This document shows positions 3,615-33,030 of a stretch of 33,986 nt of DNA, piece by piece. Origin of the DNA: a bacterium (GTDB lineage: Bacteria; UBA6262; WVXT01); contig DATKVN010000036.1 of the NCBI GenBank assembly GCA_035530055.1, positions 1 through 33,986 on the forward strand. The letters run 5' to 3'. Within the stretch, counting starts at the first letter, position 1. The number at the start of each line of letters is the position of its first letter. The notes under the pieces are model-generated. The model was not told where the DNA came from, searched no databases, and was given only the letters and a program-made list of their open reading frames with translations. Position numbers and translations under genes: made by a program.

Positions 3615-6600
3615 TTAGGTTTCCAACTCTTTCTGATAGTTAACTATTCCTGTCCCTGCAGGAATTAATCTTCCTATTATGACATTTTCCTTCAATCCTT
3701 GCAAATTATCACTCTCGCCAGAGAGAGCAGCATTTGTCAAAACCCGCGTGGTCTCCTGAAAACTGGCAGCAGAGATAAAGCTCTCACTGGAGAGAGCAGC
3801 CTTAGTTATACCTAAAAGAACTGGGCGGTACTGAATGGGCTTTTTATGCTTAGACTTAATCTTTTTATTTTCTTCTATAACTCTCGTTTTCTTAACTGTC
3901 TCTCCCACAAGAAAGCTGCTATCCCCACTATCTTCGATGCGAACGTTGGACAGCATTTGCCGTACAATAGCTTCAATGTGTTTATCGTTAATTCTCACTC
4001 CCTGCAACCGATACACTTCTTGTATCTCATTAACTAAATATTCTTGTACCTCTTTATCTCCTTTTACCCTGAGAATGTCACGGGGGTTGATGGGGCCGTC
4101 GGTTAAAGGAGCCGCCTCCGCTACTCTGTCTCCTTCGTAAACAACCAGATGGCAGTCTGGTGGTATGGGATACTCCTTGGGTTCTCCTATATCAGGGATA
4201 ACCGTTACTTTAAATGCTCCTTTCTTAGTAGTCCCTAGCTTTACTACGCCACTAATTTCAGAAATAACTGCACTGTTCTTGGGGTTTCTGGCTTCGAATA
4301 GATCGGAGATTCTTGGCAACCCACCAGTAATATCACGCGGCTTGTAATCGACCTGGGGAATCTTGCATAAAACATCTCCTTGAGAAACTTCCGCTCCGTT
4401 TTCCACCACAATGTGCGTATCCACAGGTAAAAGGTAAGACCCTAATTTTTTTCGACTCTTATCAACTACTTCTATGCGGGGTCTGAGTTTCTCCGAACGG
4501 TAGGGAATAATTACTCTTTCCTTTAAACCTGTATTTCGATTTATCTCCTCATGCAGGCTTACGCCATCAATAATATCTTCCAATCTAACCTTGCCGGGAA
4601 CTTCAGAAATAATCGGCATGGAATAAGGATCCCATTCCACCAGGAGTTCCCCTTTTTTAACTTTCTTATTTTCTTTAACTTTCAACCGCGCACCGTAAGG
4701 AACCAATTGATATTGTTCTTTGCTTTGCCTCTTTGAAGATTTAACACTTATCTCACCATTACGACTAACCACAATCAGTTGTTCCTGTTTATTCTTTATT
4801 GTACGGATAGTATGATATTTAATTGCTCCATCCTCTTTAGCTACGATCGAGGACTTCTTCACCAGTCCTGTAGCAGTCCCTCCGATATGAAAGGTTCTAA
4901 GAGTAAGCTGCGTCCCGGGTTCGCCAATAGATTGTGCTGCCACGACCCCCACAGCTAAGCCAACTTCAGCCAGCTTTCCTGTAGTCAAATCTATACCGTA
5001 GCACTTGGAGCAAATGCCTCTCGTAGTCTCACAGGTTAAAACTGAACGGATTCTAATCCGTTCAATATCAGCTTCCTGGATCTTCTTCGCTATCTCGGGA
5101 GTGATTATTTCTCCTGTTTCTACAATGACCTCATCAGTTAAAGGATGGGCGACCCTATCAATGCTTATACGCCCTGCAATCCGCTCACTTAAAGATTCAA
5201 TAAGCTCATCACCCTCTTTTAATTCACTCACGCGAACACCATTCATTGTGCCACAATCTTCCTCATTAATTACAACATTATGGGCAACATCGACGAGTCT
5301 CCTGGTAAGGTATCCAGCATCCGCGGTTTTCAAGGCTGTATCGGCTAAGCCCTTGCGTCCCCCGTGTGTGGATATGAAGTATTCCAGAACCGTCAGTCCT
5401 TCCCTAAAGTTAGATTCAATGGGAGATTCTATAATTTCTCCCACTTTACCAGTAATTCTCTTTTCCGGCCTGGCCATTAACCCGCGCATACCGGCAAGTT
5501 GTCTAATCTGCTGAACAGAGCCCCTTGCTCCAGATTCAGCCATAAGGTATATGGAATTAAACTTAGGAGTCCCTTCCTTAGCCACCTCCAGCCCCTGGTT
5601 TTTTAACTCCATAAACATAGTATCCGCTATTTTATTGGTCACGCTGGTCCAGATATCGATAATATTATTATACCTCTCCGCCTCAGTAATTAAACCCTGC
5701 CTATAATTTGATTCAATCTTTTTTACCTGAGATCTGGCTGATTCCAATAACTGTTCCTTTATCCGAGGAGTTTTCATATCATCGAGGGAGATGGTAATTC
5801 CAGATTTGGTAACATATTTAAAACCTAATGCTTTTACTTCATCGAGCAAAGCCAATGTCCTGTAATTGCCCAGTTGGTGAAAACACCTCTGAATTAAATC
5901 TGCCAAGATTTTCTTATCGATTACTGTATTGACAAAGCGAAGTTTCTCGGGGAGAACCTGGTTGAATAGAATTCTGCCCACAGTTGTATAGTCTCTCCAC
6001 CTATCAGGGTTAATGAAGTCTTCTTTTTCCCAATCGTCCCGTTCTCTAATTTTATTAATTCCTCTCACTTTTATCCGGGCGTGAAGGTCGACTTCACCCT
6101 CCTCATGGGCTACGGCAACTTCATCTACACTGGCAAAGATGAATCCCTCTCCTTTTACTCCTTTTTTCTCTTTAGTCAAATAACAGCACCCTAAAACTAT
6201 GTCCTGTGTTGGCGTTACAATCGATTGTCCATTGGCTGGAGAAAGGATATTATTTGCTGCCGACATAAGCACCTTTGCTTCCATGCAAGCTTCAGCAGAT
6301 AAGGGCACGTGCACTGCCATTTGGTCACCGTCAAAATCTGCATTGAATGCTGCGCAAACCAAAGGATGTAATTGGATTGCTTTGCCTTCGATCAAAACTG
6401 GTTGAAAGGCCTGAATTCCTAACCGATGGAGGGTGGGAGCTCTATTAAGTAGAACAGGATGGTCACGGATCACCTTTTCCAGAATATCGAAAACAACTGG
6501 AGTCCGCTTTTCCAGTTCCTTCTTAGCACTCTTCAAAGTGGTCACGTGTCCCTGAGAGATTAACTCATTTAAAATAAACGGCTTGAATAATTCCAGGGCC

Positions 6601-7769: not shown

Positions 7770-10700
7770 TTATTTTTGGAGTTCCACATTCAGACCTAAG
7801 GCTTGAAGCTCCTTTACCAATACTTTAAACGACTCGGGCACCCCTGATTCCTCTATCGGTTCTCCTTTCACAATTGCCTCATACATTTTGGTGCGGCCAA
7901 TGACATCATCGCTCTTCACGGTCAAAAATTCCTTTAAAATATAAGCTGCACCGTATCCCTCTACTGCCCAGACTTCCATCTCCCCAAACCTCTGGCCACC
8001 AAACTGCGCTTTCCCGCCCAGGGGCTGTCGGGTAATCAGTGAGTAGGGACCTATAGAACGAGCATGAATTTTATCTTCTACCAAATGTGCCAGTTTCATA
8101 ATATACATATATCCCACTGTAATTTTCTCTCCCATAGGCTCGCCAGTCAGGCCATCATACAGGGTAATTTTACCATCCTCAGGAAGTTTTGCTTGTTTCA
8201 ACTTACTTCTTATTTCTTTTTCTTTCGCTCCATCGAAGATGGGTGAAACCATCTGCACACCCAACTCATGGGCAGCCCAGCCCAATTCTGCCTCCAGAAT
8301 CTGCCCCACATTCATACGGGAAGGAATGGACAAAGGGTTCAACACTATATCCACGGGAGTCCCGTCGGGCAAATAGGGCATATCCTCAGCAGGTAGGATG
8401 CTGGCGACAACACCCTTATTCCCATGCCTACCCGCCAACTTATCACCTGCGGCGATCTTCCTCTTACTTACTACGAAAACCTTCACCAATTTGTTAACTG
8501 TAACCGGCAAGTCATCCCCTTGACGGAGATTCTCCTGCGTTTTCTTCTTATTTCTCTTCAGCTTCTCTATTTGAAATTCAGTTAATCTATTGATTTTTTC
8601 TTCCTCTCCCTTACTCAACTTTTTCGCCCGGGCAAGTGCTTTTTTCCTCTTTTGCCTCAAATCGAAAATCAGTTTACTATATTGCTGATCGATCTCCTTC
8701 GACTTCTTTAGCTCTTGGTCCTTGGAAATTTTCCCCTTACGGATGAACACCCGGACATCCAAGACCTTGCCCTCTACCCCAGGAGGGACTCTCAGCGAAG
8801 CATCTTGAACTTCCTCAGCTTTCTTTCCAAAAATCACCCTTAATAACCTCTCTTCAGGAGTAGCCCTGGTCTCGCCCTTGGGAGTAACCTTCCCCACAAG
8901 GATATCTCCAGGATAGACATAAGCTCCAATATACACTATACCATTCTCATTCAGATTCTTCAGAGCCTCTTCTCCCACATTAGGAATATCTCGGGTTATC
9001 TCTTCTGATCCTATGGTTAAATCACGAGCATCGACTTCAAATTCTTGAATATGAATTGAAGTGAAAATGTCATCCCTGACCAGTCTTTCGTTAACTAAGA
9101 TCGCATCTTCAAAATTGTATCCACCCCAGGACATAAAAGCCACCAGAACATTTCTGCCCAAAGCAAGCCCTCCCTGACAGGTAGCTGGGCCATCGGCAAT
9201 TACTTGACCTTTCCTGACATGGTCGCCTGCCTTAACAGTAGGAAGCTGATTCACACATGTATCCTGATTACTCCGCTTATACTTTTTCAAATGGTAAATA
9301 TCTACAGGACTATTTTTATTTTTGTCATCTTCGCCACACCAAACTATAATTTGATCCGCTCTCACGCTCTCCACGCGACCAGCCCGCCGAGCAATCACCA
9401 CCACTCCAGAATCCCGGGCTACCGCTTCCTCAATGCCCGTGACCACCAGTGGCTCCTCACAGACAAGAAGAGGAACCGCCTGCCTTTGCATATTAGAACC
9501 CATTAAGGCACGATTAGCATCGTCGTGTTCTAAAAAGGGAATTAACCCAGCCGAGGCACCCACAAGCTGTTTCGGTGAGATGTCCATAAGATCTATCTCT
9601 TTTGGCGAAACCAGAGAAAAATCTCCCCGACAACGGGTGGCTACCAAGTCTTCTTTAAATTTGCCTTCCTCACTTATGGGAGTATTTGCCTGAGCAATTA
9701 CATACTCATCCTCTCGGTCAGCAGTGAGATACTCAATCTGGTCAGTAACTCTTTCTCTAATTATTTTACGGTAAGGTGTCTCAATAAGTCCGTACTTATT
9801 GATCCGTGCATAAAGTGACAAACTGGTAATCAAACCTATGTTTGGACCTTCAGGAGTTTCAATGGGACAAATCCGACCATAATGGGAATGGTGAACATCG
9901 CGCACTTCAAAACCAGCCCTTTTGCGATTCAGTCCCCCGGGGCCCAAGGCAGAGAGCCTTCTCTTGTGAGTAAGTTCAGCCAGAGGGTTTGTCTGGTCCA
10001 TAAATTGAGATAGTTGACTAGTCCCGAAAAATTTCCGAATAACTCCCACCACTGGAGCAGTATTGATTATATCCCGAGCACTTATTGTTTCACTACTCTG
10101 CATATTCATTCTCTCCCTAACTAAACGAGCCATATGGGAAAGTCCAATTCTTATCTGATTCTCCAAAAGCTCACCTACCGAACGGACACGACGATTCCCC
10201 AGGTGATCGATATCGTCTATTTCTCCACCAGTTCCATTATTTAAATCGATAAGATACTTAATTGTGGCTAAAATGTCCTGCAGACATAGGGTTCGCCTTG
10301 TCTCTAGAGGGATTTCCAATTTCTTACTGTCCCTGGTTCCAAAATAGTAGTTGCTGCGACAAATAGTCTCCTGCAGTTGAGTAGGTAATTCAGATCTCAT
10401 CTTTTCCAATACAGAAGATAGTTTTCTATTTATTTTGTAGCGTCCAACTTTAGATAAATCGTATTTTTTAGTCCTGAACAACAACGTATCAAAGAACGCT
10501 ATTGCCGATTCTTCGGTAATATATTCCTGCGCGCGCAACCTGCGAAATATGTCCAGTATTGCTTGAGCCTGCGATTTAATTCTGTCCCTTTTTAAGGTTT
10601 CATGAATAGTTACATCGTTAATAGTAGGATCAAATTTCAACACTTCAACTTTGCTAATTTCTACCCTGATTATTCTCTTTGCTAACTCCAGAGTAATCTG

Positions 10701-12737: not shown

Positions 12738-12764
12738 AGTGATTTTCTTATGGTCGGGTTTCAA

Positions 12765-12869
12765 TCCTTCGGACCCCGGGGCGCTCACCATCTCGCGCCC
12801 GTCGCTACCCGGAGCTCCTCCTCCCATGAGGTCGGCGTTCGCGGGCTTCGAATCTCTCCTGTGAATCAA
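12765..12869. repeat. GC-rich mosaic repeat, copy A, behind tRNA-Ser(GCU)
   Basis: Positions 12765-12807 match 22397-22439 with a single difference over 43 bp. They contain the hairpin GGGCGC/GCGCCC (12779-12784 and 12795-12800). Positions 12818-12850 match 22364-22395, and CTCCTGTGAATCA next to the tRNA 3' end is also shared. The blocks occur here in a different order from copy B, which suggests shuffled modules. GC content is far above the surroundings. No coding sequence is convincing. Confidence 0.75.
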
Positions 12870-12959
12870 CGGAGAGGGTGAGATTCGAACTCACGCTAGG
12901 CCATTCGACCTACTACAGGTTTAGCAAACCCGCCCCTTCAGCCACTTGGGTACCTCTCC
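12870..12959 (-). tRNA. tRNA-Ser (anticodon GCU)
   Basis: This is a 90-nt class II tRNA. The acceptor stem GGAGAGG pairs with CCTCTCC, and the discriminator is G. The anticodon stem CGGGT/ACCTG holds the loop TTGCTAA, giving anticodon GCU for AGC/AGU codons. There is a long variable arm, and the T arm is GTGAG-TTCGAAT-CTCAC. CCA is not encoded. It is transcribed from its own promoter upstream. Confidence 0.96.
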
Positions 12960-16894: not shown

Positions 16895-17836
16895 TCATCT
16901 GATAATTACTACTTTTCCCGTCTGGTTCCCCTTATCACTCTCAATGCGATAGAGATAGAACCCACTGGATACTTTATTCCCTTCACTATCTTTTACGTTC
17001 CACTTTGCTTCCCCGGCCTCTTCTTCAAGAGTTGCCATTATCCTACCTTCAATATGAAATATTTTCACCGACGCACCTGAGGGAAGGTTAGTAAATGTGA
17101 TTTCAGTGTGACCCTCGCTCGGTTTAAAAGGATTAGGATAAACCTTGATAGAAGATGAAACCGGCTCGGGCTCAGGACAAATCCCTTCTGTCTCGTAAGA
17201 TATTACCAATTGGGGACGGTAGGATTCCCACTCCAATTCACTGGAAAGAAACCAAACTGCCTCATTGTCACAATTATGCTCCTTAAGCAAAAACCCGAAG
17301 TTAACGTATTTCCCTTCCAACCAATCCTTTATTGTGCGCGTCACATCCCAGGAAACCCACCCGTAGGCTCTGCCGATAAAAGATTTTGCACTCTCTAATT
17401 CCGAATCGAAGTCGCCCCCCGCCGTCCTCCAATTGCGCTTCTCTATACTCTGGTTCCAGGTTACTTCTTTGTCATTCCAGAAACCCGTAATTTTATGTAC
17501 ATAAATCACTCTCTTCTCATCGAAATAGTAGTCCTCTGCCAGACAGAGTTGTAATTCCGCCGAGGAAATAATTGCATCAGGAGGAATGGACGTCAGATCG
17601 AACCGAATAAGGATGCGTTTGGTATCTCGCTGCCCGACACCTATATTTTCCTTGCTTCCAAAGTTCTTCATCTCGTCTCCAAGACCTTTGGAAATATGAC
17701 TGTCTCGTGACTTCTCCGGCCCTGGCTGAATGGTCTGTTTCTTAGCATACGAGTAGGTAGAACTGCAAAATATTACCAGGGCACAGAATACTAATAAAGA
17801 CAGTAACTTTTTTTTCTTCCCCATAAAATTAACCAC
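16895..17836 (-). CDS. Secreted DNRLRE/CBM96-like protein with C-terminal sorting domain
   Basis: The export signal consists of basic residues and a hydrophobic stretch (LLSLLVFCALVIFCSS). A DNRLRE/disaggregatase-related (CBM96-like) domain of about 170 residues follows, with ILIRFDLTSIPPDAIISSAEL, EVTWNQS, WVSWDVTRTIKDWLEG and SYRPQLVISYE. The last about 85 residues begin VYPNPFKPSEG and end GNQTGKVVIIR, the FlgD-like/type IX sorting fold. The protein is probably exported and surface-attached, possibly binding polysaccharide. GTG at 17834-17836 has GAGG 6 nt upstream; ATG at 17824 is the alternative. It is the first gene behind the c-di-GMP riboswitch and terminator. Confidence 0.82.
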   Translation of the reverse strand: MVNFMGKKKKLLSLLVFCALVIFCSSTYSYAKKQTIQPGPEKSRDSHISKGLGDEMKNFGSKENIGVGQRDTKRILIRFDLTSIPPDAIISSAELQLCLAEDYYFDEKRVIYVHKITGFWNDKEVTWNQSIEKRNWRTAGGDFDSELESAKSFIGRAYGWVSWDVTRTIKDWLEGKYVNFGFLLKEHNCDNEAVWFLSSELEWESYRPQLVISYETEGICPEPEPVSSSIKVYPNPFKPSEGHTEITFTNLPSGASVKIFHIEGRIMATLEEEAGEAKWNVKDSEGNKVSSGFYLYRIESDKGNQTGKVVIIR

Positions 17837-17846
17837 TTTCTTCCTC

Positions 17847-17895
17847 AAAAAAAACCGATTTCTCTATCCAGCCCTACCGGATAGCAAAATCGGTT
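17847..17895 (-). terminator. Intrinsic terminator forming the riboswitch expression platform
   Basis: AACCGATTT (17887-17895) pairs with AAATCGGTT (17853-17861), with an inner TATCC/GGATA helix, and eight T follow on the minus strand. It lies between the aptamer and the first gene's ribosome-binding site, the classic position for transcriptional control by a riboswitch. Confidence 0.85.
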
Positions 17896-17900
17896 CCTAA

Positions 17901-17995
17901 GAAACTCTTCGGCAGCTCGGCTGGCATCCAAGTCCCGTGGCTTTGTGTCCCCCGATTTTTCCCCGATTATTCGGGAGTTACCTTTTCGGAGTTTC
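17901..17995 (-). promoter_or_regulatory. Cyclic di-GMP-I (GEMM-I) riboswitch aptamer
   Basis: The core reads GGGGACACAAAGCCACGGGA, then CCAGCCGAGCTGCCGAAG, close to the GEMM-I consensus GACGCAAAGCC...CAGCCGGGUUGCCGAA. P1 forms between GGTAACTC (17975-17982) and GAGCTGCC (17911-17918) with one A-C mismatch. An outer stem GAAACTC/GAGTTTC (17989-17995 with 17901-17907) closes it. The base equivalent to Vc2 G20 is G, which favours c-di-GMP over cGAMP; that numbering is from memory. Oddities are A instead of G in ACACAAAGCC, a very short P3-like arm, and a CCCGA/TCGGG hairpin with extra bases where the GNRA-capped stem is expected. Confidence 0.8.
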
Positions 17996-22307: not shown

Positions 22308-22315
22308 CTACAAAT

Positions 22316-22487
22316 CGTCGCTACCCTGAGCTCCTTATTCGTCGCTCCAGCGACCCTTCGCTACTCCTCCCATGGGTCGGCGTTCGCGGGCTTCGGTCCT
22401 TCGGACCCCGGGGCGCTCACCGTCTCGCGCCCGTCGCTAACACGTCCCGATTTATTCATCGGGACAGCGACCCCTCCTGTGAATCAT
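22316..22487. repeat. GC-rich mosaic repeat, copy B, behind tRNA-Ser(UGA)
   Basis: It contains a CGTCGCTACCC[T/G]GAGCTCCT block (22316-22335), a 32-bp block (22364-22395), a 43-bp block (22397-22439) with the GGGCGC/GCGCCC hairpin (22411-22416 and 22427-22432), a GTCCCGAT/ATCGGGAC palindrome (22444-22451 and 22458-22465), and CCTCCTGTGAATCA next to the tRNA. The same modules appear in another order at 12765-12869. The open frames across it are repeat-derived and not genes. Confidence 0.75.
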
Positions 22488-22488
22488 A

Positions 22489-22575
22489 CGGAAGGGGTGA
22501 GATTCGAACTCACGTTCCGATTACTCGGAAACTGGTTTTCAAGACCAGCGCCATCAACCGCTCGGCCACCCTTCC
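22489..22575 (-). tRNA. tRNA-Ser (anticodon UGA)
   Basis: This is an 87-nt class II tRNA. The acceptor stem is GGAAGGG/CCCTTCC, and the discriminator is G. The anticodon stem CTGGT/ACCAG holds loop CTTGAAA with anticodon UGA for UCA codons. There is a long variable arm and a TTCGAAT T-loop. CCA is not encoded. It begins two bases after the stop of the 106-aa gene that follows serS and has no promoter of its own that I can see. It is therefore probably processed from the serS transcript. Confidence 0.96.
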
Positions 22576-22900: not shown

Positions 22901-27152
<4,252 letters not shown>

Positions 27153-27176
27153 AATATTATCCTTCAATGAATACAC

Positions 27177-27220: not shown

Positions 27221-27646
27221 TTAAATATCGAATATTATCTCTGCCTGAAAAACTCCTTCAGGGAGAGTAGAATTTGAAATTTTCAGTCGGTGGTAAGTAG
27301 CAGCCTTAAACTCTGTCTCTATCTGGTGTCTGGTGATATCGAGTTCTTCTCCGAATATCTTTGCCTTAAGATGTTTCTCATCTATCTTGGAGACCTCAAA
27401 TTTGGAGAAGAGCATGCTCTGGGAAGCAGAAAGATAGATTATCTCATTCAGCCAGGAGACCAGAAGCTCTTCTTTATTCTCTGCCTCTAACGAGATATCC
27501 TCTGAATCCTTAGGGTTCACTTTCTTTAAATCTGTAATCAAACTTGCCATCCCATAGGCTGCATTTATAAATAGCTCGGCCAAATCCTTACCGTATGCTT
27601 TAATCCCCATATCTGCGGTATGCTCAATTACTTCAAACTTCTTCAC
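27221..27646 (-). CDS. Archease, RtcB activator
   Basis: The 141-aa protein matches the archease family, which speeds RtcB guanylation and turnover. Landmarks are the N-terminal [21 protein letters not shown] (with the conserved His-Thr-Ala-Asp) and LITDL. The C-terminal [20 protein letters not shown] carries the conserved acidic and Thr-Tyr-His positions. The start is GTG at 27644-27646, overlapping the gyrA stop by 4 nt (GTGA) with GAGGAGAAAGG upstream. The next gene is rtcB, the usual partner. Confidence 0.95.
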
Positions 27647-30087
27647 CCTTTCTCCTCGTTCTCTTTAACCACGCTGGCAATGGCCACCAATCTGTCTCCT
27701 TCCTCAAGTCTGATTAGCCTCACCCCTTTGGTACTCCTGCCTATGCGTCGAATACCTTTTACGGCTTGACGTATAAATAGACCGTGCGAGGTAACTAACA
27801 CTATATCGTCGCTATCAGTGACACTTTTTATTCCCACTACTTCACCGTTTCTTTGGTCGGTTATTATGTTAATTACACCCTTACCCCCTCGTGCCTGTAA
27901 TCTATATTTGTCCACATGAGTCCTCTTTCCATAACCTTTGGATGTGGCAGTTAAGAGTGCATCACCTTTCTTCATTATCTCCATCCCCACCACTCCATCT
28001 CCTTTACCCAGCCTTATACCTCTTACTCCCTGTCCCGCACGACCAATGGAACGCATCTCCTCTTCGGAAAAACGGATGGACTTCCCTTTTCCTGTGCCGA
28101 TAATTACCTCTTCTTTACCAGTAGTAAGCTTGACATCAATAAGACTATCTTTTTTACCCAGTTTTATAGCTATAATACCGCCTTTCCTGGGATTCGAATA
28201 TTCCTTCAAAGAGGTCATCTTTATCACTCCATTACAAGTTGCCATCAGAAGATATTTCTCTTTCTCTTTGGCGAAGTCTCTTACTGATACCATCGCTGTA
28301 ATTGATTCTCCAATAGAAGATAGCCTAATCAGATTTACAATAGCCTTTCCTTTGGCAGTGCGACTTGCCTCGGGAATCTCATAAACTTTCAACCAGTAGA
28401 CTTTACCCAGATTAGTGAAAAATAGCATATAGCTATGCGTTGTGGTAATAAATATGTCCTCTATAAAATCTTCTTCCCTGGTCGCCATTCCCGTAATTCC
28501 TCTGCCTCCTCTTCTCTGAGCACGATATGTAGAAACAGGGAGCCTTTTGACATAGCCAGCGTGGGAGATAGTAACCACTGCATCCTCTTCGGGAATCAAG
28601 TCTTCTATATCCATTTCTATGGCCTGAGCCTTAATCTTGGTTCTCCGTTTTTCTCCGTATTTTTCCTTTACGCTTATTAATTCTTTCCTGATAATCTCCA
28701 GAACCTTTTGGGGAGTAGCAAGAATCGCTTTGAACTGCTCTATGTTTTTAATCAATTCTACATACTCTTCTAATAGCTTGTCCCGCTCTAAGCCGGTTAA
28801 TTGGTGCAACCTCATATCCAGAATCGCCTGGGCCTGGGCTTTAGTGAATTTGAAATTTTCCATTAAGGACTCTCTCGCCTTATCTACATCTTTCGATTTT
28901 TCTATAATATTAATTACCTTATCTATATTTTCCACCGCCTTCTTTAACCCTTCCAGAATGTGAGCTCGCTGTTCGGCCTTCTCCAACTCAAACTTTGTGC
29001 GCCGGGTAACGATCTCCTTTCGATATTCGAGATAATGGGAGAGCACTTCTTTGAGATTCAGTATTCGGGGAACATTATTTACCAAGGCAAGAGTAATTAC
29101 TCCAAAAGTAGTCGCCAGCTGTGTGTGATTGAATAACTGGTTAAGCACAATCTGCGCATTCGCTTCCCGCTTCAGTTCAATAACTATGCGCATCCCCATT
29201 CGGTCAGATTCGTCACGCAGGTTACTGATACTATCTATCTTCTTATCCCTTACCAAATTGGCTATTGTCTCCAGAAGCTGAGATTTATTTACCTGATAGG
29301 GAATCTCATTAACCACTATGGCTTGCCTGCCACTACCAATTTGTTCAATATCCGTATCGGCTCTCAACTTAATCGAACCCCTGCCTGTGAGATAGGCATC
29401 TTTTATCCCCTTCTTCCCGAATATTATCCCACCAGTAGGAAAGTCGGGTCCTTTAATTACTTTCATTAATTCTGTAATTTCAGTGTTGGGATTATCTATA
29501 AGTATTATTATTCCATCAATAACCTCTTCCAGGTTATGGGGTGGTATATTGGTGGCCATTCCTACGGCAATACCTGAAGAACCGTTGATCAGGAGGTTGG
29601 GAAGCCGAGCAGGTAGAACCACAGGCTCTTTTAAAGACTCATCAAAATTGGGGACGAAGTCGACTGTGTTTTTATTAATATCGGTAAGTATTTCTGAAGC
29701 AATGTTTGCCAGCCTTACCTCTGTGTAGCGCATCGCGGCCGCTGCATCGCCATCAACGCTACCAAAATTGCCCTGTCCATCAATGAGAGGATGCCTTAAG
29801 GAGAAATTCTGAGCCATTCTCACCATAGCATCATATACAGCCATATCTCCGTGAGGGTGGTACTTCCCCAGCACTTCCCCCACAACACGGGCACTCTTCT
29901 TATAAGGCTTATTGTGAAATAAACCAAGATCCTGCATAGCGTAGAGAATACGCCGGTGAACCGGTTTCAAACCATCCCTCACATCGGGAAGAGCTCTACC
30001 CACAATTACGCTCATGGCATAGTCTATATAAGAGTCTTTCATCTCGTCTTCTATGGTTCGCGGTATAATTTTTTCAGAAGATTCCAT
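27643..30087 (-). CDS. gyrA: DNA gyrase subunit A
   Basis: GyrA is the DNA-cleaving subunit of gyrase, which introduces negative supercoils. The 814-aa protein has catalytic Tyr121 in [10 protein letters not shown] and [11 protein letters not shown] near residue 41. The GyrA box QRRGGRG in the C-terminal domain marks gyrase rather than topoisomerase IV. In the quinolone-determining region it reads [11 protein letters not shown]: Met82 occupies the position of E. coli Ser83, while Asp86 (Asp87) is kept. The ATG at 30085-30087 follows AAAGGAAAGATA. It is 293 nt downstream of gyrB, a gap filled largely by a palindromic element. Confidence 0.97.
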
Positions 30088-30148
30088 TATCTTTCCTTTA
30101 ATTTCTCTTTAAGGAAGAGTTGATTTTGAGGAGTATTAGAATTTTAGC

Positions 30149-30184
30149 GAGGGAACGAGGGCAATATCTTTCCCTTCATCCCTC
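30149..30184. other. Imperfect hairpin in the gyrB-gyrA gap
   Basis: GAGGGAACGAGGG (30149-30161) can pair imperfectly with CCCTTCATCCCTC (30172-30184). It lies beside the palindromic element at 30190-30369 and upstream of the gyrA ribosome-binding site. The role is unknown. The rest of the 30088-30189 stretch shows no gene, and I see no convincing gyrA promoter. Confidence 0.4.
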
Positions 30185-30189
30185 TTTCT

Positions 30190-30369
30190 AGGAAAAGTTA
30201 GTTCGCAAGGAGCTTTTAATTTCTTGCTTTACTAAATCTTTGCGAGCGAAACAATAAAAATTTCAATTGTTCGACCCCGATTTATCGGGGGAGTTTTTGA
30301 AATTTTAGTGTAGCGAGCAATAGATTTTGTTAGCAAGAAATTTCAGCGATGAGCAAACTAACTTTTCCT
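30190..30369. repeat. 180-bp MITE-like palindromic element between gyrB and gyrA
   Basis: The two halves are imperfect reverse complements along their whole length. The outer AGGAAAAGTTAGTT is identical for 14 bp at both ends (30190-30203 and 30356-30369). The arms AATTTCTTGCT (30218-30228) and its complement (about 30332-30342) lie at equal distance from the ends. The apex is CCCCGAT-TT-ATCGGGG (30275-30290). The transcript could form one arm-length hairpin of about 90 bp. It has no coding capacity. It looks like a non-autonomous element or a large REP; no target duplication is obvious. Confidence 0.75.
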
Positions 30370-30380
30370 GTCTCTTTCCA

Positions 30381-33030
<2,650 letters not shown>

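Follow-up and report, generated by a model that had tools for sequence, protein, structure and literature searches.

A genus-restricted family of intergenic palindromic repeats, with one copy between gyrB and gyrA, lies in a single orientation behind upstream genes

The palindromic element between gyrB and gyrA

The window analyzed here, 33,986 nucleotides in length, is contig C36 of a genome of 1.68 Mb in 106 contigs (G000). The spacer between its gyrB and gyrA genes contains a palindromic element (Table 1), which the initial annotation had described as an imperfect inverted repeat with 14-bp identical ends and a CCCCGAT/ATCGGGG apex. Comparison of the arms and of the apex bears this description out: the outer arms are 17 nt long and differ from perfect complementarity by one mismatch (94%), with the outermost 14 nt identical. 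Among the long palindromes detected by scanning the window, the element ranks first by far, with a score of 34 (next 20; codon-shuffled control 0). Its predicted folding energy, for which a comparison with shuffled controls had been proposed, lies far below them on both strands. The plus strand RNA folds at −72.4 kcal/mol versus −40.8 ± 4.0 in 200 dinucleotide shuffles (z = −7.9) and the minus strand, the sense strand of the gyr genes, at −70.0 (z = −6.6), and for neither strand does any shuffle fold as well. Of the hairpin of about 90 bp that had been expected, the strong palindromic fold stands but the continuous stem does not; the alignment of the two halves gives ~60 Watson-Crick pairs within a 172-bp core, and the hairpin is interrupted rather than perfect over 90 bp. 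No Rfam family matches positions 30190-30369 at the gathering score. The stretch directly upstream of gyrA is, judging by eye, probably a second, fragmentary element.

Elsewhere, the window carries an RtcB gene (tRNA-splicing ligase) interrupted by an intein (24180-27176; Pfam Intein_splicing and RtcB), a c-di-GMP-I riboswitch (17908-17992) upstream of the gene at 16895-17848, and repeats adjoining two tRNA genes (~12755-12895 and 22315-22504), which are common to both places and to WJOT01000078.1, a contig of the related genome G003.

Table 1. Positions of the element, its parts and the neighboring genes in the window
Feature	Position	Strand	Remark
Full palindromic element, window copy, of the subfamily with ends AGGAAAAGTTAGTT	30190..30369	-	Left to right end runs along gyrB to gyrA
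Left terminal arm AGGAAAAGTTAGTTTGC, followed by the left-end signature CTCATCGCTG	30353..30369	-	11 bp behind the gyrB stop codon
Right terminal arm, GCGAACTAACTTTTCCT on the minus strand	30190..30206	-	
Apex hairpin CCCCGATTTATCGGGG, followed by GAGTTTTTGA	30275..30290	+	Terminator-like only antisense to gyrB-gyrA
gyrB, upstream gene	30381..32846	-	Stop codon 30381-30383
gyrA, downstream gene	27643..30087	-	Start at 30087
Stretch upstream of gyrA (..CTCGCTAAAATTCTAATACTCCTCAAAATCAACTCTTCC)	30105..30160	-	Resembles, by eye, the right arm of the G000:C23 copy at ~8000-8250

A multi-copy family restricted to one genus

The element used as a query against G000 retrieved related pieces at about 20 other places (best hit 91% identity over 73 bp, on contig C23), and 77 occurrences of the end pattern AAAAGWTAGTTTG with at most one mismatch were counted in this genome, against 15 of the reversed control. 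Pairing of the ends delimited copies that measure 94-392 bp and share the arm TTAAAAGATAGTTTGT, for which the window copy has GGAAAAGTTAGTTTGC; the left end of the family reads ..TTTGTTCATCGCT and the right end ..CTCTTCACAAACTATCTTTTAA. The further copies with related ends for which a genome-wide search had been recommended are thus present. Their interiors are variable and mosaic, some containing a second palindrome family and others REP units, the latter being the same units that flank a Y1_Tnp gene on contig C43 of G000. This RAYT-like gene (G000:C43:15946-16194) has arrays of CCTCCCGAAAGGGAGG / CCTTGCTTTCGCAAGG hairpins on both flanks. A relative of the element in G002 (G002:C95, L372:15612-15767) has a different, yet symmetric, end arm, GGCTAAAAGCCAGTTTGT, and lies 7 bp behind a stop codon.

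Each of the four genus genomes contains dozens of copies, and these are short, non-coding, multi-copy and bounded by terminal inverted repeats, as MITEs are. With a plain copy of the element as the query, all four genus genomes (G000 to G003) were positive and none of 56 others (two of the same order and 54 further genomes); the family is genus-restricted. No phage or plasmid matched at E 1e-5, and the left-end pattern had no exact counterpart in viral contigs; on these grounds a phage or plasmid vehicle was rejected. WJOT01000078.1, which belongs to G003, is labelled "Clostridia bacterium"; this label is doubtful, since its GyrA is 96% like that of the window and the next best match is an Omnitrophota MAG at 65%.

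Filled and empty sites

Eighteen flanks from G000, joined end to end, were used as queries in G001 to G003. The same orthologous site can be filled in one genome of the genus and empty in another, and many G000 sites are empty in the three relatives, so that the empty sites sought in the comparison with relatives do exist. The orthologous empty spacers measure ~12-50 bp. At the site on contig C33, for instance, the upstream gene ends in G000 at a TAG that lies within the element, and in the empty relatives at a TGA that overlaps the next ATG. The site on contig C61 is empty in the outgroup G002, while G000:C24:9033 is filled in both G000 and G002 and empty in G001 and G003. Given the latter pattern, precise loss between short repeats may occur besides gain, and some of the empty sites may be secondary deletions. 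AAATA, TT, TAGGATG or nothing clear appears as target duplication at the junctions, differing by site, and no constant target-site duplication was consistent across the compared filled and empty sites. Other orthologous spacer slots in the sister species (G000 to G003) hold unrelated palindromes, and the presence of unrelated palindromes in the same operon spacers indicates a fast turnover of intergenic palindromes.

Candidate mobilizers and the proposed origin

The initial annotation had considered a MITE and called for a transposase with matching terminal repeats. Further copies and empty sites speak for the MITE reading; a transposase with matching ends was not found in searches for end pairs and for DDE_Tnp_1. 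In the four genomes, which are incomplete MAGs, no pair of ends lies 0.5-3 kb apart around an ORF, and an autonomous element with the same ends was therefore rejected; DDE_Tnp_1 was likewise rejected as the mobilizer, as none was found in these MAGs. No Y1_Tnp is detectable in G001 and G002, and mobilization of the whole element by a RAYT was rejected because two of the four carrier genomes lack it. Moreover, a transposase would usually require ends of constant sequence, and the end arms of the family instead drift in pairs. Loss of SbcCD as the reason for the palindromes was also discarded: SbcD has no match in any of the four genus genomes and a match in both same-order genomes, but long palindromes are not denser in the genus genomes than in a same-order genome.

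Taken together, we consider that the window element is one copy of a MITE-like palindromic repeat that is non-autonomous, restricted to the genus and tolerated where it is least harmful, and assign this reading a probability of about 0.75. Copies would arise by insertion, with a putative transposase that is possibly extinct or acting in trans, and would persist at positions that leave intact the C-terminus of the upstream protein and the Shine-Dalgarno sequence of the next gene. Insertion slightly inside a gene would be tolerated because the end arm carries stop codons.

Polarity and placement at stop codons

Orientation was assigned to each copy solely from its end sequences. Wherever the upstream gene could be read, in about 42 copies out of 42 (~36 independent loci once orthologues are removed), the element is co-directional with that gene, and its left end mostly lies between −8 and +15 bp from the stop codon of the gene, a few compound copies being further out. 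Three apparent exceptions to the orientation were resolved on inspection: G003:C44 and G002:C82 lie 3 bp behind a mogA-like gene, and the ORF upstream of the copy at G000:C100 runs as far as an outer arm. Some 15 copies supply the stop codon of the upstream gene, in ~9 cases as the TAG inside AAAGATAG and in six as a TAA or TGA formed at TTRA. The copies are usually found within tight operons, most of them between co-directional genes, for example between a tuf-like gene and rpsJ, before rplB, between rplR and rpsE, between pfk and pheT, and behind the mogA-like gene; copies are thus present inside the S10/spc ribosomal operon. Closeness to stop codons is expected if survival of copies is limited to tight operons with their short spacers. 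The complete polarity, however, is not explained by survival in short spacers; it is an unusually clean signal and the part worth following.

One clue lies in the apex. Of the 25 plain copies, 15, the window copy among them, carry a terminator-like signature (a GC hairpin followed by GAGTTTT(G/A)TTT) on the antisense strand, and only one carries it on the sense strand. The apex hairpin with its GAGTTTT would act as an intrinsic terminator only in the antisense direction and, because it faces that way, a reversed copy would place a terminator in the operon and cut it off. The copies that reside within operons such as S10/spc and pfk-pheT argue that the observed orientation is not strongly terminating. 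The strict polarity could accordingly reflect purifying selection against termination of the operon by the antisense apex, an explanation that we put forward tentatively and at somewhat less than even odds.

Ten of the 25 plain copies, together with the copies carrying nested REPINs, lack the antisense terminator-like apex and yet are co-directional, which leaves room for a polar insertion mechanism. Insertion by an enzyme that uses exposed single strands or transcribed DNA (e.g., a Y1/HUH transposase) would place the element in the sense orientation only, behind stop codons, and the polarity would then be mechanistic and not selected. The completeness of the polarity even in copies without a terminator-like apex fits this, as do the Y1_Tnp proteins encoded in G000 and G003, one of them flanked by REP arrays, and end arms that co-vary while their sequence drifts. 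Nevertheless, the elements are present in G001 and G002, where Y1_Tnp is not detectable, the element itself is not a REP/REPIN and a fixed target motif was not seen. We regard polar insertion as unlikely. Rather doubtful, too, is a wider proposal, according to which palindromic repeats spread with absolute polarity onto gene 3' ends in transcribed operons, transcription- or single-strand-coupled insertion setting both orientation and stop anchoring, and paired arm evolution replacing a fixed terminal repeat. In either case, the question has become testable: does one-way termination or polar insertion lie behind the survival sites of such repeats?

Arm co-variation and a possible role in RNA

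A hairpin read in one direction would also be sensitive to orientation. As an intercistronic RNA structure, the element could be cut in the transcript (e.g., by RNase III) or stabilize the upstream mRNA, as for ERIC and NEMIS, and the strict polarity with the upstream gene, the strong RNA folding, the RNase III encoded in all four genus genomes and the orientation-dependent effects of ERIC in Yersinia (PMC2229807) would be compatible with such a function. The pattern of substitutions points elsewhere. Across the 16-bp arms, 32 cells were changed on both sides and still pair, versus a mean of 6.5 and a maximum of 15 in 2000 sets of shuffled right arms. One-sided departures in the end arms comprise 14 G-T versus 22 A-C, and the mismatches over whole elements 112 G-U versus 119 A-C, counts that are not independent as the copies are related. 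The co-varying arms thus show no preference for G-U and no sign of selection at the RNA level, which was rejected on this test, and the symmetry looks like a property of the DNA (transposition ends, or template-switch repair of quasi-palindromes) rather than the product of selection on the sense RNA. In addition, slots in the sister species are empty or hold unrelated palindromes, and a functional RNA hairpin appears improbable to us.

The gyrase locus in the relatives

The gyrB-gyrA spacer differs among the four genomes. In G002, by sequence identity the most distant congener, it is short, the element is absent and a terminator-like hairpin (GGTTCGGTTTG..CAAGCCGAAC TTTTTTT) is present. The spacers of G001 and G003 have this hairpin plus remnants of the right arm of the element. 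In G000 the element is complete and the hairpin is gone, apparently by deletion between AAAGA repeats. In the gyrA gene of G003 (WJOT01000078.1, ~5400-6000), residue 122 is preceded by an intein-like insertion, which is missing from the GyrA of the window; an NCBIfam model, GyrA_w_intein, exists.

The loss in G000 of a terminator-like hairpin from the very spot where the element now lies could suggest that the element serves as a Rho-independent terminator or attenuator between cistrons. A GC hairpin with a U-tract in the direction of transcription was, however, seen in just the one sense-strand case among the 25 plain copies, the terminator-like character of the element is confined to the antisense strand, and copies sit inside the S10/spc ribosomal operon, which makes this role very improbable.

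The initial annotation had also raised a supercoiling-responsive cruciform, which would control gyrase expression and for which the palindromy and the position between gyrB and gyrA could be cited, but copies occur in many unrelated operons, the palindrome has many mismatches and the gyr loci of G001 to G003 lack the element or retain only a remnant, so that this idea, largely refuted by the relatives, was rejected and is scarcely credible. A conserved gyrase-regulating role is excluded by the absence or remnant state of the element at the gyr loci of relatives, and the element has no gyrase-specific role. A unique sequence conserved in all relatives had been named as what would argue against mobility; the element is instead multi-copy and not conserved at this locus. 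With the wrong story of a cruciform tuning gyrase removed, what stands is a repeat family in a little-studied lineage that introduces large hairpins into the spacers of essential and highly expressed cistrons, replaces stop codons and does so in one direction throughout.

Comparison with known repeat families

The family is new but of a known kind, that of MITE-like intergenic palindromic repeats; in architecture and placement it is like ERIC, YPAL and BOX, and membership in none of these is claimed. ERIC/IRU of enterobacteria is an imperfect palindrome of ~127 bp with terminal inverted repeats, located in transcribed intergenic regions, with an unknown transposase and with reported effects on mRNA that depend on orientation (PMC2229807). 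The likeness to ERIC is one of architecture, and the family described here differs in its unrelated taxon, its complete polarity and the position of its left end at the stop codon. YPAL/RU-2 of Yersinia, a ~168-bp intergenic palindrome with filled and empty sites, no TA ends and irregular target duplications of 3-26 bp (PMC2229807), shares the palindrome, the intergenic location and the filled and empty sites, whereas the present family is polar, its end arms co-vary and supply stop codons, and a uniform target duplication was not seen.

REP/REPIN sequences with their RAYT (GTAG/CGTC-tagged palindromes) coexist with the family and are nested inside some copies. The element, however, is not a tagged hairpin unit of 20-40 bp accompanied by a RAYT: it measures 94-392 bp, has long arms and occurs in G001 and G002 with no detectable Y1_Tnp. 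Finally, BOX of Streptococcus pneumoniae is a short interspersed repeat that likewise reaches into the 3' ends of genes, 36 of which take their stop codon from it (PMC3049150). BOX, RUP and SPRITE are, nonetheless, enriched between convergent genes, whereas the family found here lies mostly between co-directional genes and in one orientation.
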